Assembly (NCBI GenBank): GCA_005116955.1
Contig: SWDI01000001.1
Span: forward strand, 479,508 to 543,507
Direction of reading: 5' to 3'
From: Nitrospira sp.
GTDB taxonomy: Bacteria > Nitrospirota > Nitrospiria > Nitrospirales > Nitrospiraceae
DNA length: 64,000 bases
Below are positions 31,015 through 39,325 of the stretch, piece after piece. Each line of letters starts with the position of its first letter. Position 1 is the stretch's first letter. The notes beneath the pieces were generated by a model. The model had not been told where the DNA came from, made no database searches, and saw only the letters and a program-made list of their open reading frames with translations. The translations under genes were made by a program, and so were the position numbers.

Positions 31015-31710
31015 TCACGTCAACTCAAGCGTCAATTGCTCTGGCGCTTTGGTTCGCTTAGTCGGTCCGGCTGACCGGGGTGATGGGGTTAAGGCATGAG
31101 TCGGGTAGGGCGTGGGACGATCCTCGATCAGCTGAGTCGGTGACAGGAGTTCCTGCAAGGCGCCGTGACAGAATCCGCAGTGATGGCGTTTTGGCTGGAT
31201 CGTTCTTCGGTGCCGTCGATAGAGTCGCCCGCAGTCTTGGCATCGCCAGGCGAATTTCGCTAAGGCCAGTACTTCCTTCTCTAGCGTGTGGTACGTCGTT
31301 ACGGCGACTGTTCCTGTTCGATTCATCTGCGCCATCTTCCGCAAAAACTCCAGGCCATGATCAGGTCGACGTTTCAATACATCGAATTGCCATTGATGAA
31401 TCATTTCATGAGCCAAGGTGTTGAGCAGTTCCTGTTCCGCGTAGGGTGTCCGTGCGGTGAGCTGTTCAAAGAGCGGGAGAGATAGGCGAATTTCTCGACG
31501 GCTGTGAGTCAGGGTGAGGGGGGAGAAGGTCTTTGGCCCTTCGCGACAGGCAAACATCCCAACCGAGGAGGTCAGGCGCTGACTCCAGACGATCTCGATC
31601 GGCTTCAGTGAACCGGCAAAGTACTGTGTGTTCAAGTGCTGCCAACGAGCCTGTAGCCATTCTGAAGAAAGGAGTACCGACAGGCTCGGGGTGGACGAGG
31701 ATGGACTCAT
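31015..31710 (-). CDS. SprT-family zinc metalloprotease-like protein
   Basis: A 231-residue protein with the SprT/Spartan-like domain: 'LNTLAHEMIHQWQF' gives HExxH at 101-105. A zinc ribbon follows, with Cys pairs in 'CQDCGRLYRRHRR' and 'HHCGFC'. Eukaryotic Spartan removes DNA-protein crosslinks; the role of bacterial SprT is uncertain. The C-terminal 35 residues are Thr/Pro-rich and probably disordered. Its start overlaps the stop of the upstream deoxyhypusine-synthase-like gene by 4 bases, indicating an operon with gmhA. Confidence 0.85.
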   Translation of the reverse strand: MSPSSSTPSLSVLLSSEWLQARWQHLNTQYFAGSLKPIEIVWSQRLTSSVGMFACREGPKTFSPLTLTHSRREIRLSLPLFEQLTARTPYAEQELLNTLAHEMIHQWQFDVLKRRPDHGLEFLRKMAQMNRTGTVAVTTYHTLEKEVLALAKFAWRCQDCGRLYRRHRRTIQPKRHHCGFCHGALQELLSPTQLIEDRPTPYPTHALTPSPRSAGPTKRTKAPEQLTLELT

Positions 31711-32696
31711 CCCAATTCCTCCAGCACGGCCGCCGCGAGCAACGGCAGCATGATCTCGTGGTGGCCAGTCAAGGAATAGCCCTGGCCGCCCTTTTGCGTG
31801 GGGCGCCGCACGACGTTGGTCTGTGGTCGGTAATGGGAGAGAAAGTCCATATTCACGGTCGTAATGTTGGCGATCGGATGGCCGAGGTTTCTCCCTAATG
31901 ACAGTGTTTTGAGAAAGACCTCTGGCAGAATCACCGCCGAGCCGACGTTCAGGTAGACGCCCCCTTCCATCCCAGCGACGACAGCGGTCAAACGCCTGAA
32001 GTCCAGGAGAGACGTGGCTCCGATGGCTGCGCCGTCCGCCGAAGGGTGCATGTGGATAATGTCGGTTCCGACCGCGACATGCACGGTCACCGGAATACCG
32101 AGTGTTGCTCCTGTGGCGAGAATACTGACGGCTCGATTCGGGAATTGATCGGCTGTGTGGTTCATGTAGCGCCCGATGGCTTCACCCAGCCCCTGACCGT
32201 CTTTCGCGCCACGCGTGATGGCGTCATTCAGAATCCGTCCCGTTTCTTCCGCCATGCCAAACCGGCCATTATCGATCTCGGCATCGACTTCTTCGGAGGT
32301 ATGGCCCATGAGGGCCAATTCGAAGTCGTGAATAATTCCTGCCCCGTTCATGGCCACTGCTGTGATGATCCCTCGTTCCATCAAGTCCGTGATGATCGGG
32401 GACAGCCCCACCTTGATGACATGGGCGCCGATCCCGAGGATGACGGGGCGGCGCTTTCGATGCGCCTTCACGATGGCCTGGGTAACGGCCCGCAATGTTG
32501 TGACCGCGAGGATGTTTGGAAGGCGGGACGAGAAGGTCGAGAAAGTCCCTCCGCGTTTCCATGGCGCGGCCAAGTCTGAAAGCCGAACCTTGCTGTGTCG
32601 TTTTTTTAGCGGATAGGTCTTGAGGTCAGACGCATTGATCGGAGGGATCAAAGCGGGAGGCCGAGTCGAGGAAGTCCGATCAGGACGCTTTCCCAA
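31707..32696 (-). CDS. Deoxyhypusine-synthase-like protein
   Basis: A 329-residue soluble protein with Rossmann-like features ('VILGIGAHVIKVGLSPIITD', 'GIITAVAMNGAGIIHDFELA') that I associate with the bacterial deoxyhypusine-synthase-like NAD-binding family. 'FGMAEETGRILNDAI' and 'VGTDIIHMHPSADGAAIG' look like active-site loops. Bacteria lack hypusine, so true deoxyhypusine synthase activity is unlikely; related enzymes act on polyamines such as homospermidine. It overlaps gmhA by 17 bases and sprT by 4, so it is expressed with heptose biosynthesis. The family call is from memory and moderately sure; the substrate is unknown. Confidence 0.55.
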   Translation of the reverse strand: MGKRPDRTSSTRPPALIPPINASDLKTYPLKKRHSKVRLSDLAAPWKRGGTFSTFSSRLPNILAVTTLRAVTQAIVKAHRKRRPVILGIGAHVIKVGLSPIITDLMERGIITAVAMNGAGIIHDFELALMGHTSEEVDAEIDNGRFGMAEETGRILNDAITRGAKDGQGLGEAIGRYMNHTADQFPNRAVSILATGATLGIPVTVHVAVGTDIIHMHPSADGAAIGATSLLDFRRLTAVVAGMEGGVYLNVGSAVILPEVFLKTLSLGRNLGHPIANITTVNMDFLSHYRPQTNVVRRPTQKGGQGYSLTGHHEIMLPLLAAAVLEELG

Positions 32697-33258
32697 GGAA
32701 ATGATCCTCTACCAGTTCGCACAGGACGTGGCCGAGCGTGATGTGACTTTCTTGAATCCGAGACGTGACCGTAGACGGAACGATGAAAGGGTAATCGACC
32801 AACGCGGCCAGCTTTCCGCCGTTGGCGCCCGTCCAGGCAATCGTGGTCAAGCCACCGTCGCGAGCCGCCGCGACGCCTTTCAGCACGTTTGGAGAATTCC
32901 CGCTGGTGCTGATGCCAATCGCAATGTCCCCTTTTCGGCCATGCGCGCGCACCTGGCGGGCGAAGAGTTCTTCGTACCCATAGTCATTCGCGATGCAGGT
33001 AATGGCGGCGATGTCTGTCGCCAAGGCAATTGCGGGCAACGGCATGCGGTCGGCCTTGTACCGTCCGACGAACTCCGCCGCAATATGGGCCGCATCGGTG
33101 GCGCTGCCACCGTTGCCGAACAGCAAGACTTTATAGCCGTCGCGAAAGGCCGCTACGAGCAGCCGTGCGACCTGCACGATGCGGTCGGCATGTTCACACG
33201 CGAACTTCTGTTTCACGCTCGCGCTATCGGTAAACGCCGCCAAGACTGAATCCTTCAT
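32680..33258 (-). CDS. gmhA: Phosphoheptose isomerase GmhA
   Basis: A 192-residue SIS-domain isomerase converting sedoheptulose 7-phosphate to D-glycero-D-manno-heptose 7-phosphate, the first ADP-heptose step. It has 'LLFGNGGSATDAAHIAAEFVGRY' (only part quoted), 'GISTSGNSPNVLKG' and the C-terminal zinc/active-site 'QESHITLGHVLCELVE'. ATG 33258 gives the usual length; upstream in-frame codons to 33294 look non-coding. It is the first gene of gmhA, DHS-like, sprT. Confidence 0.93.
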   Translation of the reverse strand: MKDSVLAAFTDSASVKQKFACEHADRIVQVARLLVAAFRDGYKVLLFGNGGSATDAAHIAAEFVGRYKADRMPLPAIALATDIAAITCIANDYGYEELFARQVRAHGRKGDIAIGISTSGNSPNVLKGVAAARDGGLTTIAWTGANGGKLAALVDYPFIVPSTVTSRIQESHITLGHVLCELVEDHFLGKAS

Positions 33259-33312
33259 GGGCGCGATTCTAGGCGAGGTCATTGATCCTGTCAAACGGAA
33301 CGGGTGTGCCTA

Positions 33313-34251
33313 TTACGACTTCGCGGGGGGTGAGATCCCAGGTTGTCTCATGGCATTCATTGCCAGTGCGATCATTGAGCCGACATCAGACACGCTTGCC
33401 GGCAGGATAAGGGTATTGGTCGTTTTCGCTAACTCACCGAACTTGGTGATGTACTGCTCCGCGACGCGGAGCTGAACGGCCTCTTGCCCTCCGGGAACCT
33501 GAATCGTTTCAGCGACTCTTCGGAGGCCCTCTGCCGTGGCCTGTGCAATGGCGAGAATGGCGGATGCCGCGCCCTCCGCTTCGTTGATCTGTTGCTGCTT
33601 CTTGGCTTCCGATGCCTTAATCACTTGTTGCTTTTCACCTTCCGCCTGGTTGATCGCGGCATCACGTTCGCCTTCTGAGGTCAAAATCAATGCGCGCTTC
33701 TCCCGTTCCGCACGCATCTGCTTCTCCATCGCGTTCAGAACATCCTTCGGCGGGGTGATGTTTTTGATTTCGTAACGGAGAACTTTGACGCCCCAAGGCT
33801 CCGATGCTTTATCCAATTCGTTGACCACCTGAGCATTGATCGTGGTTCGGGCTTCGAATGTCTTGTCCAGTTCGATTTTCCCGATCTCACTTCTCAGCGC
33901 CGTCTGGGCCAATTGCGTGAGCGCAAACTGATAGTCGCTGATTCCGTAGGATGCGCGTTCCGGATTCAGGACCCGCATATACAGGATTCCATCGACATGT
34001 ACCTGAACATTGTCGCGGGTGATGCAGACTTGCTCCGGAATATCGACGGCGTTTTCCTTCAGCACGTGCCTGTATCGGATCACGTCGATGAACGGCACCA
34101 AGATGTGGAATCCCGCATCCAGCGTCGAACCGTATTTGCCTAAGCGTTCCACGACATAGGCGCTCTGTTGAGGGACGACGACCGCCGTCTTCGCGATGAC
34201 GATTAAGACGATCACCGCCAGGGCGATGACCACGAATGTTCCACCTTCCAT
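33313..34251 (-). CDS. SPFH/stomatin-like membrane protein (QmcA/paraslipin type)
   Basis: A 312-residue protein with one N-terminal membrane helix ('FVVIALAVIVLIVIAKTAVV'), then the SPFH domain ('VPQQSAYVVERLGKYGSTLD', 'ARTTINAQVVNELDKASEPW') and a long charged coiled coil rich in Glu, Lys and Ala ('EGERDAAINQAEGEKQQVIK'). Such proteins form ring-like membrane scaffolds that organise proteases and lipid domains. ATG 34251 has gaggt 7 bases upstream; the open frame to 34377 runs into the nfeD gene. It pairs with the NfeD gene 26 bases upstream. Confidence 0.92.
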   Translation of the reverse strand: MEGGTFVVIALAVIVLIVIAKTAVVVPQQSAYVVERLGKYGSTLDAGFHILVPFIDVIRYRHVLKENAVDIPEQVCITRDNVQVHVDGILYMRVLNPERASYGISDYQFALTQLAQTALRSEIGKIELDKTFEARTTINAQVVNELDKASEPWGVKVLRYEIKNITPPKDVLNAMEKQMRAEREKRALILTSEGERDAAINQAEGEKQQVIKASEAKKQQQINEAEGAASAILAIAQATAEGLRRVAETIQVPGGQEAVQLRVAEQYITKFGELAKTTNTLILPASVSDVGSMIALAMNAMRQPGISPPAKS

Positions 34252-34277
34252 GTCGTTACCTCGTTCGAGAGAGATTG

Positions 34278-34706
34278 CTATTCCTGTCTCACCCAGAGCA
34301 TCAGACCGTCTACCTTGATGACCGTCGCACGTTGTCCTGCAGAAAGAGACGTCGTTCCGACGTTCCGCGCACCCCACGTGGAACCGCGCAATTCAACTTT
34401 CCCCGTATGCTCCGGCTGCAGGTGGTCGATCAGGATCGCCGTCTCTCCGATCATGGTGTCCATCGCCTGCGGGGGATGCCGTTGTGTCAGGTGAATCAAT
34501 GGCCCGCGTAACAGCAGCAACGAGAGGATCGCCACAATGGAGAACAACAGCCACTGGAGCCAGTCGGCTGTGATGACATCCAGACCGGTCAGGGCACCGA
34601 CCATCACGGCGGCGATGCCGAAGAACAAGAGGTAAAACCCTCCGGGAGACGCCATCTCTGCGCCGACCAAGGCCAGGCCCAGAAACATCCAATACCACCA
34701 GATCAT
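34278..34706 (-). CDS. NfeD-like membrane protein
   Basis: A 142-residue short-form NfeD: hydrophobic N-terminal half with about three helices ('WMFLGLALVGAEMASPGGFY', 'LLFSIVAILSLLLLRG'), then a C-terminal OB-fold domain ('GETAILIDHLQPEHTGKVEL', ending 'ATVIKVDGLMLWVRQE'). NfeD proteins are standard genetic and physical partners of SPFH proteins; the SPFH gene follows directly. No serine protease domain is present. Confidence 0.9.
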   Translation of the reverse strand: MIWWYWMFLGLALVGAEMASPGGFYLLFFGIAAVMVGALTGLDVITADWLQWLLFSIVAILSLLLLRGPLIHLTQRHPPQAMDTMIGETAILIDHLQPEHTGKVELRGSTWGARNVGTTSLSAGQRATVIKVDGLMLWVRQE

Positions 34707-34817: not shown

Positions 34818-34847
34818 TTGATCACGTACTCACGGCGATGATATAGT
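34818..34847 (+). promoter_or_regulatory. Promoter of the CARF-HEPN gene
   Basis: TTGATC (34818-34823) and TATAGT (34842-34847) are separated by 18 bases. The -10 box ends 9 bases before the ATG at 34857, again suggesting a very short or absent leader. Confidence 0.45.
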
Positions 34848-34856
34848 TCGCGCGCG

Positions 34857-36113
34857 ATGGCACAAGACCAACCCATCAAGACGCTCGTGGTCGCATTGGT
34901 TGATGATGCGGCGGCGGCAGTCTATTCGATCAACAGGCTCAATCCGGAGGCCCTGTGTTTCGTGTTGCCTGAAGGAAGTAAGGCCTTGGTGGAATCGGAC
35001 ATACAACCGAAGATCCAGCAGATGCCGAGGCGGTGGGATTGGATTGTGCTGGCAGACGTGATGGAGTTCCCATCTCTCTATCAGACGATGGCCCGGTCGT
35101 TACCAGATCTCTTGCGGACTTGGGAAGTACAGCCGGGGGAGCTGGTTGTGGATCTGAGTGGAGCCACCCCGGCGATGGCGGGTGCGCTTACCTTGGTGGC
35201 GTTCCCATGGACTTCTCGGGTGGTCGAGCTGGCTCAGGCGCGCGACGGTCAGGAGGGCGATCGGGTCGAGTTGGGCACCAAGACGCTCGTCTGGACCCAA
35301 AGTAATCCCTGGGATGAGCAAGCAACTGTGTCACGTCGGGAAGGGTGCGAGTTATTTAACCGGGGTCTCTTTCGCGCCGCCGCCAAACTCTTCCATGGCG
35401 TAGAACTGCGAGTGAGTGGCGGGCACAAGCCGCTCCATCGTGCCTTCACCGATTTGGCCGAGGGCTACGAGTTATGGGAACGGTTTCAGTACCGGCAAGC
35501 GTGGGACAAGTTGAGAACGGCGACAAAGGCTCTGGAGATGGCGTCGCTGTGGGGCGGACCGGCTGGATTGAACGCGATCCTGCCTCATCTGAAGGCCAAC
35601 GCGAGTTTCCTTGAGAAGCTGGTGCTGGACCCTGCGGAGGTCAAAGAATACCTTGCGCTGGACCTGTTGGCATATGTGGGCAGGCATCTCCATGTTGGCC
35701 ATGACCCCGAAGGGGCGATGACAGCGCTCGTTCGTGCGCTGGAGGCGTTCGCGCAAGTCCGGCTCTATAAGTCGCACAAGATCAAGAGTTGGGATGTCTC
35801 GCCAGAACAGCTCCCGCAAGCGCTTCAAGAGACCTGCCGAACCTGTTATCTCGAAGACATTGATGGCAAGTACAAGCTGCCGCTCCAAGCGCAGTTTCGT
35901 GTGTTGGCCGGACTGGGCGATCAACTGGGCCAAGCCTTTCTCAAGGAATGGCCGAAGATGAAGCCGTTGCTGGATGCCGCGAACCATGCCGTGTTGGGAC
36001 ACGGCTTCGAGCCGATCAAAGTGGAGCGAGTGCAACAGCTGTACGATGTCGTTGTCCGACTCACCGGCGTTGCGGAGTCTTCGCTGCCGAAGTTTCCTGT
36101 CTTGAACCTCTGA
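34857..36113 (+). CDS. TIGR02710-like CARF-HEPN protein (Csm6-related), solitary
   Basis: A 418-residue protein that resembles the CRISPR-associated TIGR02710/Cas02710 family. Residues about 7-150 form a Rossmann-like CARF region: 'IKTLVVALVDD' strand, 'WDWIVLADVMEFPSLYQTM' and ligand-loop 'VVDLSGATPAMAGALTLVAF' (98-117), where such proteins usually read D-x-[TS]-GG-T-K-x-M. Residues 155-300 are helical, including 'HDPEGAMTALVRALEAFAQV' (282-301), a family-like repeat helix. The C-terminal 'LLDAANHAVLGHGFEPIK' (371-388) matches the HEPN RNase motif region, but Ala375 stands where the catalytic Arg is expected, while Asn376 and His382 remain. No cas1, cas2, cas10 or CRISPR array is in the window. 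It may be a stand-alone nucleotide-sensing protein with altered ligand or lost RNase activity. Family assignment is from memory of these motifs. Confidence 0.65.
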   Translation: MAQDQPIKTLVVALVDDAAAAVYSINRLNPEALCFVLPEGSKALVESDIQPKIQQMPRRWDWIVLADVMEFPSLYQTMARSLPDLLRTWEVQPGELVVDLSGATPAMAGALTLVAFPWTSRVVELAQARDGQEGDRVELGTKTLVWTQSNPWDEQATVSRREGCELFNRGLFRAAAKLFHGVELRVSGGHKPLHRAFTDLAEGYELWERFQYRQAWDKLRTATKALEMASLWGGPAGLNAILPHLKANASFLEKLVLDPAEVKEYLALDLLAYVGRHLHVGHDPEGAMTALVRALEAFAQVRLYKSHKIKSWDVSPEQLPQALQETCRTCYLEDIDGKYKLPLQAQFRVLAGLGDQLGQAFLKEWPKMKPLLDAANHAVLGHGFEPIKVERVQQLYDVVVRLTGVAESSLPKFPVLNL

Positions 36114-36174
36114 GCGTTCAGCGGCTCACTGTTAGGTATTGGAACTGAGGCCGACTGCTGAGAGCTGGTCACAC

Positions 36175-36588
36175 ATGGACATTCGCGTCTACTACGAAGA
36201 TACCGACTGCGGCGGGGTCGTCTACTACGCCAATTACCTGAAATATTTTGAACGGGCTCGGACCCACTACCTCGAAGATCGAGGGCTGTCGGTGGCAGGG
36301 CTCATGGCCGAAGGAACGGTGTTTGTCGTCGTGCATGCGGAGGTGCATTATCGGTCGCCTGCCCGCTATGGCGAGACGTTGGTGATCGAGACGGTCGTCC
36401 CCGAGATGACGGCTGCGTCGATCACTTTTACCCACGTGGTCAAGGACAAAGTCAGTGGGCGTGTCGTGGTCGAAGGGTCGGCCAGACTGGCGGCGACGGA
36501 CGGCAATGGCAAGGTGAAGCGCCTGGACAAGGCAACCGTCGCTGCGATACAGTCGGAGGGGTATTCTGCTGAGAGACGTCATGCGTAA
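36175..36588 (+). CDS. ybgC: YbgC/FadM-type acyl-CoA thioesterase
   Basis: A 137-residue hotdog-fold thioesterase with the catalytic Asp motif 'YYEDTDCGGVVYYANYLKYF', specific to the YbgC/4-hydroxybenzoyl-CoA thioesterase group, and 'HAEVHYRSPARYGETLVIE'. Members hydrolyse acyl-CoA, often linked to the Tol-Pal system in Gram-negatives; no tol genes are seen here. ATG 36175 is chosen by family length; the frame opens at 36139. It lies 61 bases after the CARF-HEPN gene. Confidence 0.9.
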   Translation: MDIRVYYEDTDCGGVVYYANYLKYFERARTHYLEDRGLSVAGLMAEGTVFVVVHAEVHYRSPARYGETLVIETVVPEMTAASITFTHVVKDKVSGRVVVEGSARLAATDGNGKVKRLDKATVAAIQSEGYSAERRHA

Positions 36589-37597: not shown

Positions 37598-39325
37598 TCA
37601 GCGATGGGTCACTGTTTGAGTAGAGAAGCCCTGGAGTTTCTTACCGACCTGCGCCTTCGTGTTACCCACAGGGCCACCTGACTCTGACCACTGCGTAATC
37701 ACGATTTCTATTCGCCGGTTCTTACTCCGGCCTTTTTCTGTGTCATTGGCCGCAATCGGTTTGCTGTCGGCGTACCCCATGGCTTTGACTCGATCGGCCT
37801 CAAGCCCTCCGTTGATCAATATTTGAATGGCATGTTCGGCCCGTGTCCGGGAGAGTTCGATGTTATCCCGAAAGCCCTTCCGAGGGTCGCTCCGGAGCGG
37901 CGCGTTGTCGGTATGGCCGGCAACCTCGATGTTCTGGTAGCGAAATCCGTGCAGGACGGCTCCGATCCGTTCGAGCAACGAAGTGCCTCCGAGGGTCACT
38001 GCGGCATCACCGGTGGGGAACAATTCAGCGGTTGCAAACGCAAGGGTCAATTTATTGCCTTGTTGCCTCAACGTCGCACTGCCCTTCTTGAGTTCGGGCT
38101 GTAAGAGGCTGGCGAGACTCTCGCTCATCTTCCCGAGGTCGCTACTTGATATGGCGTCTGCATCATCTGCAAGCGCGGGTGTGGGCGATATCAGATTAGT
38201 CACGGCTAGGTTCTGATCGAGCGATTGTAGAGGAATCACGCTCTTATCTACAACGCTGTCCTCTTGGGCAGGAGCTGGTTCGGCTTGCTTGGACGTAGTG
38301 CGTTCGAGGTCTGCCAGCAATTGCTTCGTGCGTGCGAGTTCCGTGTCTCTTGCCATGAGTTGAGGATTGAGATCTGCCAGCTTTTGCGTGACTTGCTTGA
38401 GGTCGTCCTTGAGCTGCCCTAGTTCTTGCTCTTTCCGCGCTGTCTGCTGTTCAAATTCGGTTGCACGGCGTTTGGTTTGGGCCAGTTCCTGTTCTTTCCC
38501 CGCCATCTGTAGTTCGACTTCAGTGAGGCGACGCTTGGCCTGCGCCAGATCTTGGTCTTTCCCCGATGCCGTCAGTTGCTCTGCTTCGGCTGGGCGGCGT
38601 CTGGCCTGTGCCAGTTCTTGCTCTTTCCGCGCCGTCTGCTGTTCGGCGTCGGCAAAGCGACGTTTAGCCTGCGCCAGCTCTTGCTCCTTCCCTGCCATCT
38701 GTAGTTCGACTTCGGCAATTCGGCGTTTAGTCTGTGTCAGTTCCTGTTCTTTTCCTGCTATCTGTTGTTCGGTGTCGGCTGCACGGCGTTTGGCCTGGGC
38801 CAGCTCCTGTTCTTTCCCTGCCATCTGTAGTTCAACTTCAGTGAGGCGACGCTTGGCCTGCGCCAGGTCCTGCTCTTTCTTTGCTGTCTGTTGTTCGGCG
38901 TCGGCTGCGCGGCGTTTGGCCTGCGTCAATTCTTGCCCTTTCCCTGTCGTCAGCTGTAGTTCGACTTCGGAGACTCGACGTTTGGCCTGGTTGAGCTCCT
39001 CAGTTTGTGACGCAAGATCCTCTCGAAGCTTCTTAGAGTTCTCGTAGGCATTGGATTGCAGGGCGGTGATCTCATTATCTTTGGCATGGAGTTGGATAAC
39101 TAACTCACCGATCCGTCGCTTGGCATTCTCCAGATTGCCGGCAGCGAGTTGTCGCTCGAGCTCATCGATTCTTTGCCTGGCCTGCTGAAGATTGGTTCTC
39201 GTCACGCTCAATTCATCTTGCGGCGACTGGCCAGCTGCATCTCCAACGGCCAGAGAAAACGGCACAACTCCGCAGAACATGGCGAGGGATAGAAGCGTGA
39301 AGGCCGATAATGTTTTGATGATCAT
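37598..39325 (-). CDS. OmpA-family protein with long repetitive coiled coil
   Basis: A 575-residue exported protein. The signal peptide (about 1-26, 'LLSLAMFCGVVPFSLA') is followed by a coiled coil (about 37-345) whose middle part (about 108-301) is built of nine or so 21-residue repeats such as 'GKEQELAQAKRRAADTEQQIA' minus one residue, i.e. three heptads each. A linker (about 350-430) leads to a C-terminal OmpA/MotB peptidoglycan-binding domain (about 433-545: 'IEVAGHTDNAPLRSDPRKGF', 'NIELSRTRAEHAIQILI', 'GYADSKPIAANDTEKGRSKN'). It probably spans the periplasm and holds peptidoglycan at one end. It is monocistronic. Confidence 0.88.
   Translation of the reverse strand: MIIKTLSAFTLLSLAMFCGVVPFSLAVGDAAGQSPQDELSVTRTNLQQARQRIDELERQLAAGNLENAKRRIGELVIQLHAKDNEITALQSNAYENSKKLREDLASQTEELNQAKRRVSEVELQLTTGKGQELTQAKRRAADAEQQTAKKEQDLAQAKRRLTEVELQMAGKEQELAQAKRRAADTEQQIAGKEQELTQTKRRIAEVELQMAGKEQELAQAKRRFADAEQQTARKEQELAQARRRPAEAEQLTASGKDQDLAQAKRRLTEVELQMAGKEQELAQTKRRATEFEQQTARKEQELGQLKDDLKQVTQKLADLNPQLMARDTELARTKQLLADLERTTSKQAEPAPAQEDSVVDKSVIPLQSLDQNLAVTNLISPTPALADDADAISSSDLGKMSESLASLLQPELKKGSATLRQQGNKLTLAFATAELFPTGDAAVTLGGTSLLERIGAVLHGFRYQNIEVAGHTDNAPLRSDPRKGFRDNIELSRTRAEHAIQILINGGLEADRVKAMGYADSKPIAANDTEKGRSKNRRIEIVITQWSESGGPVGNTKAQVGKKLQGFSTQTVTHR
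38423..39004 (-). repeat. Coding tandem repeats of 63 bp (21 residues)
   Basis: About nine degenerate 63-bp units inside the OmpA-family gene. Units alternate between a form with 'TEVELQMAGKEQELAQ' and a form with 'AADAEQQ', giving a 126-bp higher-order period. The plus strand therefore shows a long Ser/Cys-rich open frame that is only a shadow. The identity between units makes slippage or copy-number change likely. Confidence 0.85.

Follow-up and report, generated by a model that had tools for sequence, protein, structure and literature searches.

Proteins of the CARF-HEPN kind are known for their part in immunity, as switchable effectors toxic to their own cell. In Thermus Csm6, the K137A mutant shows neither cA4 binding nor RNase activation, and the R415A, N416A and H422A mutations each abolish RNase activity (PMC10897365). 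Alanine mutants at both sites are still dimeric, as reported in PMC4748810, where the CARF ligand motif is defined as (D/N)-X-(S/T)-X3-(K/R). In the parts of the HEPN survey by Anantharaman et al. (2013; PMC3710099) covered here, inactive HEPN domains are proposed to be nucleic-acid-binding or regulatory, other residues are suggested to do the work in some families that lack the canonical motif, and the Csm6 (Cas_Cas02710) HEPN family is listed as having a conserved motif.

The protein described here has 418 residues and is encoded by an intact open reading frame (34857-36113, forward strand) within a 64-kb stretch of Nitrospira sp. DNA, which we call the window, and its ATG start is kept among the orthologs. 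By sequence family it belongs to TIGR02710/Csm6, of the CARF-6H-HEPN type: the TIGR02710 profile scores 112.9 bits (E = 1.7e-32; cut-off 83.9), and the Csm6 HEPN profile PF09670 (65 bits) and the Csm6_6H profile PF22205 (44 bits) both score above their cut-offs. Because the PADLOC model PDLC01812 (CARF1--CARF_HEPN) spans the whole product at 818 bits, the cluster is already catalogued as CARF-HEPN. The original prediction of a Csm6-like CARF-HEPN protein, made from the DNA letters alone, is confirmed by these profile searches, which it had itself proposed and which returned significant matches. Judged as a functional cyclic oligoadenylate (cOA)-activated ribonuclease, the same protein lacks the tested defining features, and we refer to it as pseudo-Csm6. 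The features of the gene are as follows.

34818-34847, forward strand: weak sigma-70-like promoter match, TTGATC-18-TATAGT, 9 of 12 consensus positions, by consensus match only

34857-36113, forward strand: pseudo-Csm6, with CARF at approximately residues 1-150, 6H at approximately 159-252 and a degenerate HEPN at approximately 265-403 (TIGR02710, PF09670, PF22205, PDLC01812, AlphaFold/Foldseek)

34896-34916, forward strand: first CARF loop, LVDDAAA, residues 14-20, by alignment; intact relatives mostly have (I/V)GG(S/T)xEP

35157-35171, forward strand: CARF ligand loop, SGATP, residues 101-105, by alignment; the Lys105 position corresponds to K137 of Thermus Csm6

35979-36005, forward strand: degenerate HEPN motif, A375-N376-x5-H382-G383, by alignment; aligned with R415 and H422 of Thermus Csm6

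A promoter of the gene's own had also been proposed; the sigma-70-like match does lie 9 nt before the ATG, but it is weak evidence for that claim.

An AlphaFold2 monomer model of the protein, for which 51 orthologs served as input, has a mean pLDDT of 86 and a pTM of 0.69; its N-terminal domain is of Rossmann type, and the domains after it are helical. Full-length Thermus Csm6 accounts for all eight of the best Foldseek matches in the PDB (5fsh, E = 1e-13; range approximately 1e-13 to 1e-12), and Csm6 from Streptococcus and Enterococcus and further CARF proteins come next. Global TM-scores to Thermus Csm6 are low (0.4-0.5), probably because the domain angles differ. Thermus Csm6 was also the best match in a profile search of the PDB (E = 1e-4), and a search of the same database with the single sequence of the 418-residue protein gave no useful match. 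As modelled, the fold is that of Csm6.

We compared the motifs of 77 aligned orthologs with those of 16 relatives from outside the clade, 12 of them other TIGR02710 copies and four from family f21. Both substitutions that had been read from the sequence are where they were described, in register with all 16 relatives: S101-G-A-T-P105 stands in place of the TGGTK loop, and A375-N376-x5-H382 in place of R-N-x5-H. The alignment of homologues, which had been suggested as a check, finds Lys at position 105 in 16 of 16 relatives and in 0 of 77 orthologs, of which 49 have Pro, 17 Ala, five Ser, five Val and one Thr; Arg at the catalytic position 375 is likewise present in 16 of 16 relatives and in 0 of 77 orthologs, of which 72 have Ala, two Ser, two Val and one Thr. 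The CARF ligand motif is thereby broken in all 77, with D99 and the Ser or Thr at position 101 retained and Lys105 missing, and so is the HEPN R-X4-6-H motif, from which the Arg is missing in every ortholog and the His in nine. The first CARF loop has also changed, Gly15 being gone in 73 of the 77 orthologs and retained in 15 of the 16 intact-motif relatives, and the mobile-loop Tyr is missing from most orthologs. Profile alignment to Thermus Csm6 pairs Pro105 with K137, Glu124 with Y161, Glu296 with E332, Ala375 with R415 and His382 with H422. An assembly error or a chance substitution can be ruled out, since the losses are common to 77 of 77 orthologs.

Because the Thermus mutants K137A and R415A lose cA4 binding and RNase activity, respectively, we strongly infer the loss of both from the orthologs, which on this analogy would have neither a cOA response nor canonical HEPN RNA cutting. 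Weak or altered activity may persist, as His382, Asn376 and E296 are mostly retained. Both functional ends have been rebuilt in every ortholog; at the level of sequence, the three-domain fold and the remaining HEPN core are strongly conserved. Thirteen residues are conserved at ≥95% in the order and are rare or absent in the intact-motif relatives (77 against 16 sequences): W60-D61-W62, E183, P192, V256, D258, K263, W312, C327, Q346, G381 and Q394. The W60-D61-W62 triplet belongs to the CARF domain and G381 to the old active-site loop, where Gly in 77 of 77 orthologs replaces Ala in 16 of 16 relatives. These 13 lineage-specific residues are the best places to seek a new function.

The gene is present in 136 of the family's 147 genomes, a count that includes one genome (G138) with an intact-motif paralog only, and in 106 of the 109 high-quality genomes and all 22 genera. 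There is nearly always one copy per genome. Orthologs at approximately 50-100% identity span three families of the order (f1, f2 and f3), and no close match was found among the genomes listed for the remainder of the class. The 61 named loci come from records of Nitrospira, Nitrospiraceae, Nitrospirae or Nitrospirales, with the single exception of one labelled 'Nitrosospira', which is a mislabelled record. Two genomes (G042 and G435) have neither the gene nor its flanking genes, and because the flanks are missing too, the locus is probably missing from these assemblies. Three others have lost the gene and kept the GmhA-like and deoxyhypusine-synthase-like (DHS-like) neighbours described below: G065 (L184) retains a short ybgC remnant, and G329 (L185) and G394 (L186) lack ybgC as well. 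These three genomes are 1.7-2.0 Mb in size. Elsewhere, one genome carries, a short way past the intact copy, a partial second copy that has a stop (G136:C56:139774-140043), and in another the gene is broken into three fragments (G141:C3:55467-56474). An exapted, order-wide core pseudo-Csm6 that no longer has the residues needed to bind cOA or to cleave at a canonical HEPN site is well supported.

Purifying selection on this gene is strong and on par with that on neighbouring housekeeping genes. The median dN/dS over 132 ortholog pairs is 0.095, and the dead HEPN half gives 0.05-0.13 in the comparisons made with the window's ortholog. Similar comparisons yield 0.089 for pseudo-Csm6, 0.118 for ybgC, 0.107 for the GmhA-like gene and 0.060 for the DHS-like gene. 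The suggestion that the intact frame is being kept agrees with these values (approximately 0.09) and with frames that are intact across the order. On a tree built with the motif columns left out, the proteins of the order form one clade (100/100), and a single change of the Arg state is needed. The order's stem is long (0.8), and the protein tree mirrors the families, save for one f1 sequence that clusters with f3. An origin as a mobile element or phage gene is not supported, the locus being syntenic across families and the tree following them.

The closest clade on the tree is f21, a family of another class in the same phylum. Its proteins (L097-L100) resemble the orthologs at 37-39% identity at best and lie in a housekeeping context as in Nitrospirales (the L097 gene adjoins rho, prfA and murA), but they keep TGGTK (TCGTK in L100) and RN-x5-H. 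Strong Cas10 matches occur elsewhere in four of the five f21 genomes that carry the gene. This is compatible with the gene having left a CRISPR locus before the motifs were lost.

The retained residues of the old active site raise the alternative that the protein is still an enzyme, through another HEPN site (Asn376, His377, His382) or a new CARF activity. His382 is present in 68 of the 77 orthologs and Glu296, the Glu that pairs with the catalytic Arg, in 75, and such use of other residues has been proposed for some motif-less HEPN families in the parts of PMC3710099 cited above. Asn376 is found in 48 of 77. However, His377 is variable (51 of 77), and the nine exceptions at position 382, all in f2, are Tyr in five, Gly in two, Gln in one and Asn in one. 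The Tyr lineage (L094, L095, L102, L109 and L110) is under purifying selection, with a dN/dS of 0.07-0.15, and catalysis by His382 therefore cannot be a trait kept throughout the order. The finding that R415A, N416A and H422A each inactivate the Thermus enzyme (PMC10897365) also argues against an alternative HEPN site, and we consider continued enzymatic activity unlikely.

Synteny was counted over 53 mapped ortholog loci, and the neighbours in the window are listed here.

31707-32696, reverse strand: GSU2086-family/DHS-like protein, conserved neighbour (NF052581, 442 bits; 39 of 53 loci)

32680-33294, reverse strand: SIS-domain GmhA-like isomerase, conserved neighbour (PF13580; 30 of 53 loci)

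33313-34377, reverse strand: SPFH/band 7 (slipin-like) protein, divergent upstream neighbour (PF01145, PF16200; 16 of 53 loci)

34278-34706, reverse strand: NfeD-like protein, divergent upstream neighbour (PF01957; synteny)

36175-36588, forward strand: ybgC-like 4HBT thioesterase, downstream on the same strand (PF13279/PF03061; below the TIGR02799 cut-off, above that of TIGR00051)

The listed reading frame of the ybgC-like gene begins at a TTG at 36139, and the ATG at 36175 is the likelier start. The NfeD and slipin-like genes are found at the locus in some lineages only. The ortholog locus is a fixed housekeeping spot and not a defence island. Farther along the window, 37598-39325 on the reverse strand encodes an OmpA-domain protein with a long coiled-coil of repeated 'AGKEQELAQAKRR' units.

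The sole hint of a pathway, and a weak one, is the link to ybgC, which immediately follows the gene in the same orientation at 38 of 53 loci from f1, f2 and f3, often with a gap of 0-25 nt. The two products might share a pathway, for example with the CARF Rossmann domain as a CoA-like nucleotide sensor that controls acyl-CoA/acyl-ACP turnover, and in the three genomes that have lost the gene but retain the locus there is no intact ybgC either. That co-loss may equally reflect single deletions of neighbours. Moreover, a gene for a PF05635 protein (23S rRNA-intervening-sequence, four-helix) splits the pair in 13 loci, among them L034, L036, L037, L038, L040, L043, L049, L061, L062 and L067, at approximately +1270 to +1680 from the gene start; at least two sequence subtypes of PF05635 occur there, which suggests repeated insertion at the same place. 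In several loci, those of genus g23 of f2, the gene is kept with ybgC absent or distant, so the adjacency may be non-functional. A shared pathway with ybgC thus appears quite improbable.

The original prediction noted that no CRISPR array or cas gene lies in the 64 kb. A simple scan that detects the genome's known array as a control found no CRISPR-like array in the 64-kb window, so that the claim stands there as far as tested; it does not extend to the genome (3.65 Mb, 8 contigs, 99.8% complete), which carries a type I-C locus elsewhere, on a different contig. This locus contains the genome's one Cas1, and its Cas1c, Cas7c, Cas8c and Cas5c all exceed their curated cut-offs. It also holds an HD/helicase protein resembling Cas3, whose HD domain scores above its cut-off, and a short array with a repeat of 37 nt. 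Near the locus, on the minus strand (L033:1662-4498), lies a probable calcium-binding RTX-type protein with repeats at 27-nt spacing. Searches that were positive in control genomes found neither a Cas10 palm domain (profile search) nor a SMODS cyclase in the source genome. A hidden type III locus was considered and rejected, there being no Cas10 and the CRISPR system found being of type I-C; a complete type III locus accompanied by close homologues that keep the Arg was not encountered. The relatives, which the prediction had proposed to check for CRISPR, mostly lack Cas10 too: it is present in eight of the 147 family genomes, and approximately 94% are without it. Of the 12 intact-motif csm6 genes examined, eight have a Cas10 on their contig no more than 20 kb away (G138, two in G012, G002, G412, G324, G395 and G289), as against 0 of 77 orthologs, Cas10-bearing genomes included.

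Dead paralogs of dimeric enzymes often act as decoys or inhibitors. Pseudo-Csm6 might similarly be dead and still linked to defence, as a decoy, sponge or inhibitor that damps cOA signalling or as a hetero-dimer partner of active Csm6 during infection, and a few genomes (G012, G002, G108, and the f2 genomes G421 and G346) do hold a dead copy together with an intact-motif Csm6 and Cas10. We think such a role very unlikely, because the gene is kept in the Cas10-free majority of the family, every ortholog has lost the Lys without which Thermus Csm6 fails to bind cA4, and the locus is a housekeeping one. A decaying relic of a type III system lost recently, as the missing motifs and the scarcity of Cas10 might suggest, is scarcely credible given intact frames order-wide, a conserved locus and a single, old and shared loss, and recent orphaning is ruled out by dN/dS and distribution.

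The explanation that we favour, at a probability of roughly 0.6, is a single exaptation of a Csm6-type protein on the Nitrospirales stem. The product would be a core pseudo-RNase, inherited vertically and working outside CRISPR, that is blind to cOA and does not cut. The original prediction's reading of a sensor that was put to use outside CRISPR and has lost its RNase activity draws support from the double loss in 77 of 77 orthologs, core status across the order, strong purifying selection and the lack of Cas10 in the source genome and in approximately 94% of family genomes, with the loss of RNase activity argued from the Thermus mutants. By analogy with those mutants, pseudo-Csm6 would still form a Csm6-like homodimer. 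Its rebuilt CARF face could take another small molecule or a protein partner, or receive no input at all; any input would be passed on by the 6H helices to what was the RNase cleft. From its ancestry, that cleft may bind RNA or a partner without cutting, and the protein would thus act as a regulator or scaffold. We propose only tentatively, and with slightly less confidence than an even bet would imply, that a type III effector was domesticated as an essential or near-essential housekeeping regulator of the order, its rebuilt CARF domain sensing a non-cOA signal or partner and its dead HEPN domain binding RNA or protein.

The gene is a conserved core gene, without a signal-producing enzyme and without a nuclease site, of an ecologically important order that includes nitrite-oxidizing and comammox Nitrospira. 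Exaptation, if true, would provide a clean case in which a signalling effector of CRISPR has been put to work in a cellular role, and the sister clade with intact motifs could serve as a comparison. It would also raise the question of what CARF and HEPN folds sense and bind when they no longer respond to cOA or cut RNA. Because TIGR02710 and PADLOC PDLC01812 label the gene as CRISPR-associated or CARF-HEPN without a type III system, automated defence annotation of Nitrospira is misleading, and these labels are an annotation trap in defence surveys of Nitrospirota.

An open-literature search, which the main CARF classification (Makarova 2020) lay outside, yielded no description of a pseudo-Csm6 or Nitrospira CARF protein, and we did not find the double motif loss or the core, Cas10-independent spread of the TIGR02710/PDLC01812 cluster stated in the literature searched. 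No mention of a dead core Csm6 was found in the covered parts of Anantharaman et al. 2013 (PMC3710099). Pseudo-Csm6 matches the TIGR02710 and PDLC01812 models and differs from what the catalogue name, CRISPR-associated, implies. With T. thermophilus Csm6 (5fsh, 8jbb, 8jbc, 8jh1) the orthologs share the CARF-6H-HEPN order and, mostly, the equivalents of Glu332, Asn416 and His422. They differ from it in that identity is approximately 22%, the Nitrospira gene has no type III locus, K137 is replaced by Pro, Ala, Ser, Val or Thr, Y161 mostly by Glu, Ser, Ala or Thr, and R415 mostly by Ala. The inactive HEPN domains in the covered parts of the Anantharaman survey are alike in another respect, as there too the HEPN fold is retained, the catalytic residues are gone and the domain is proposed to be reused as a binder or regulator.
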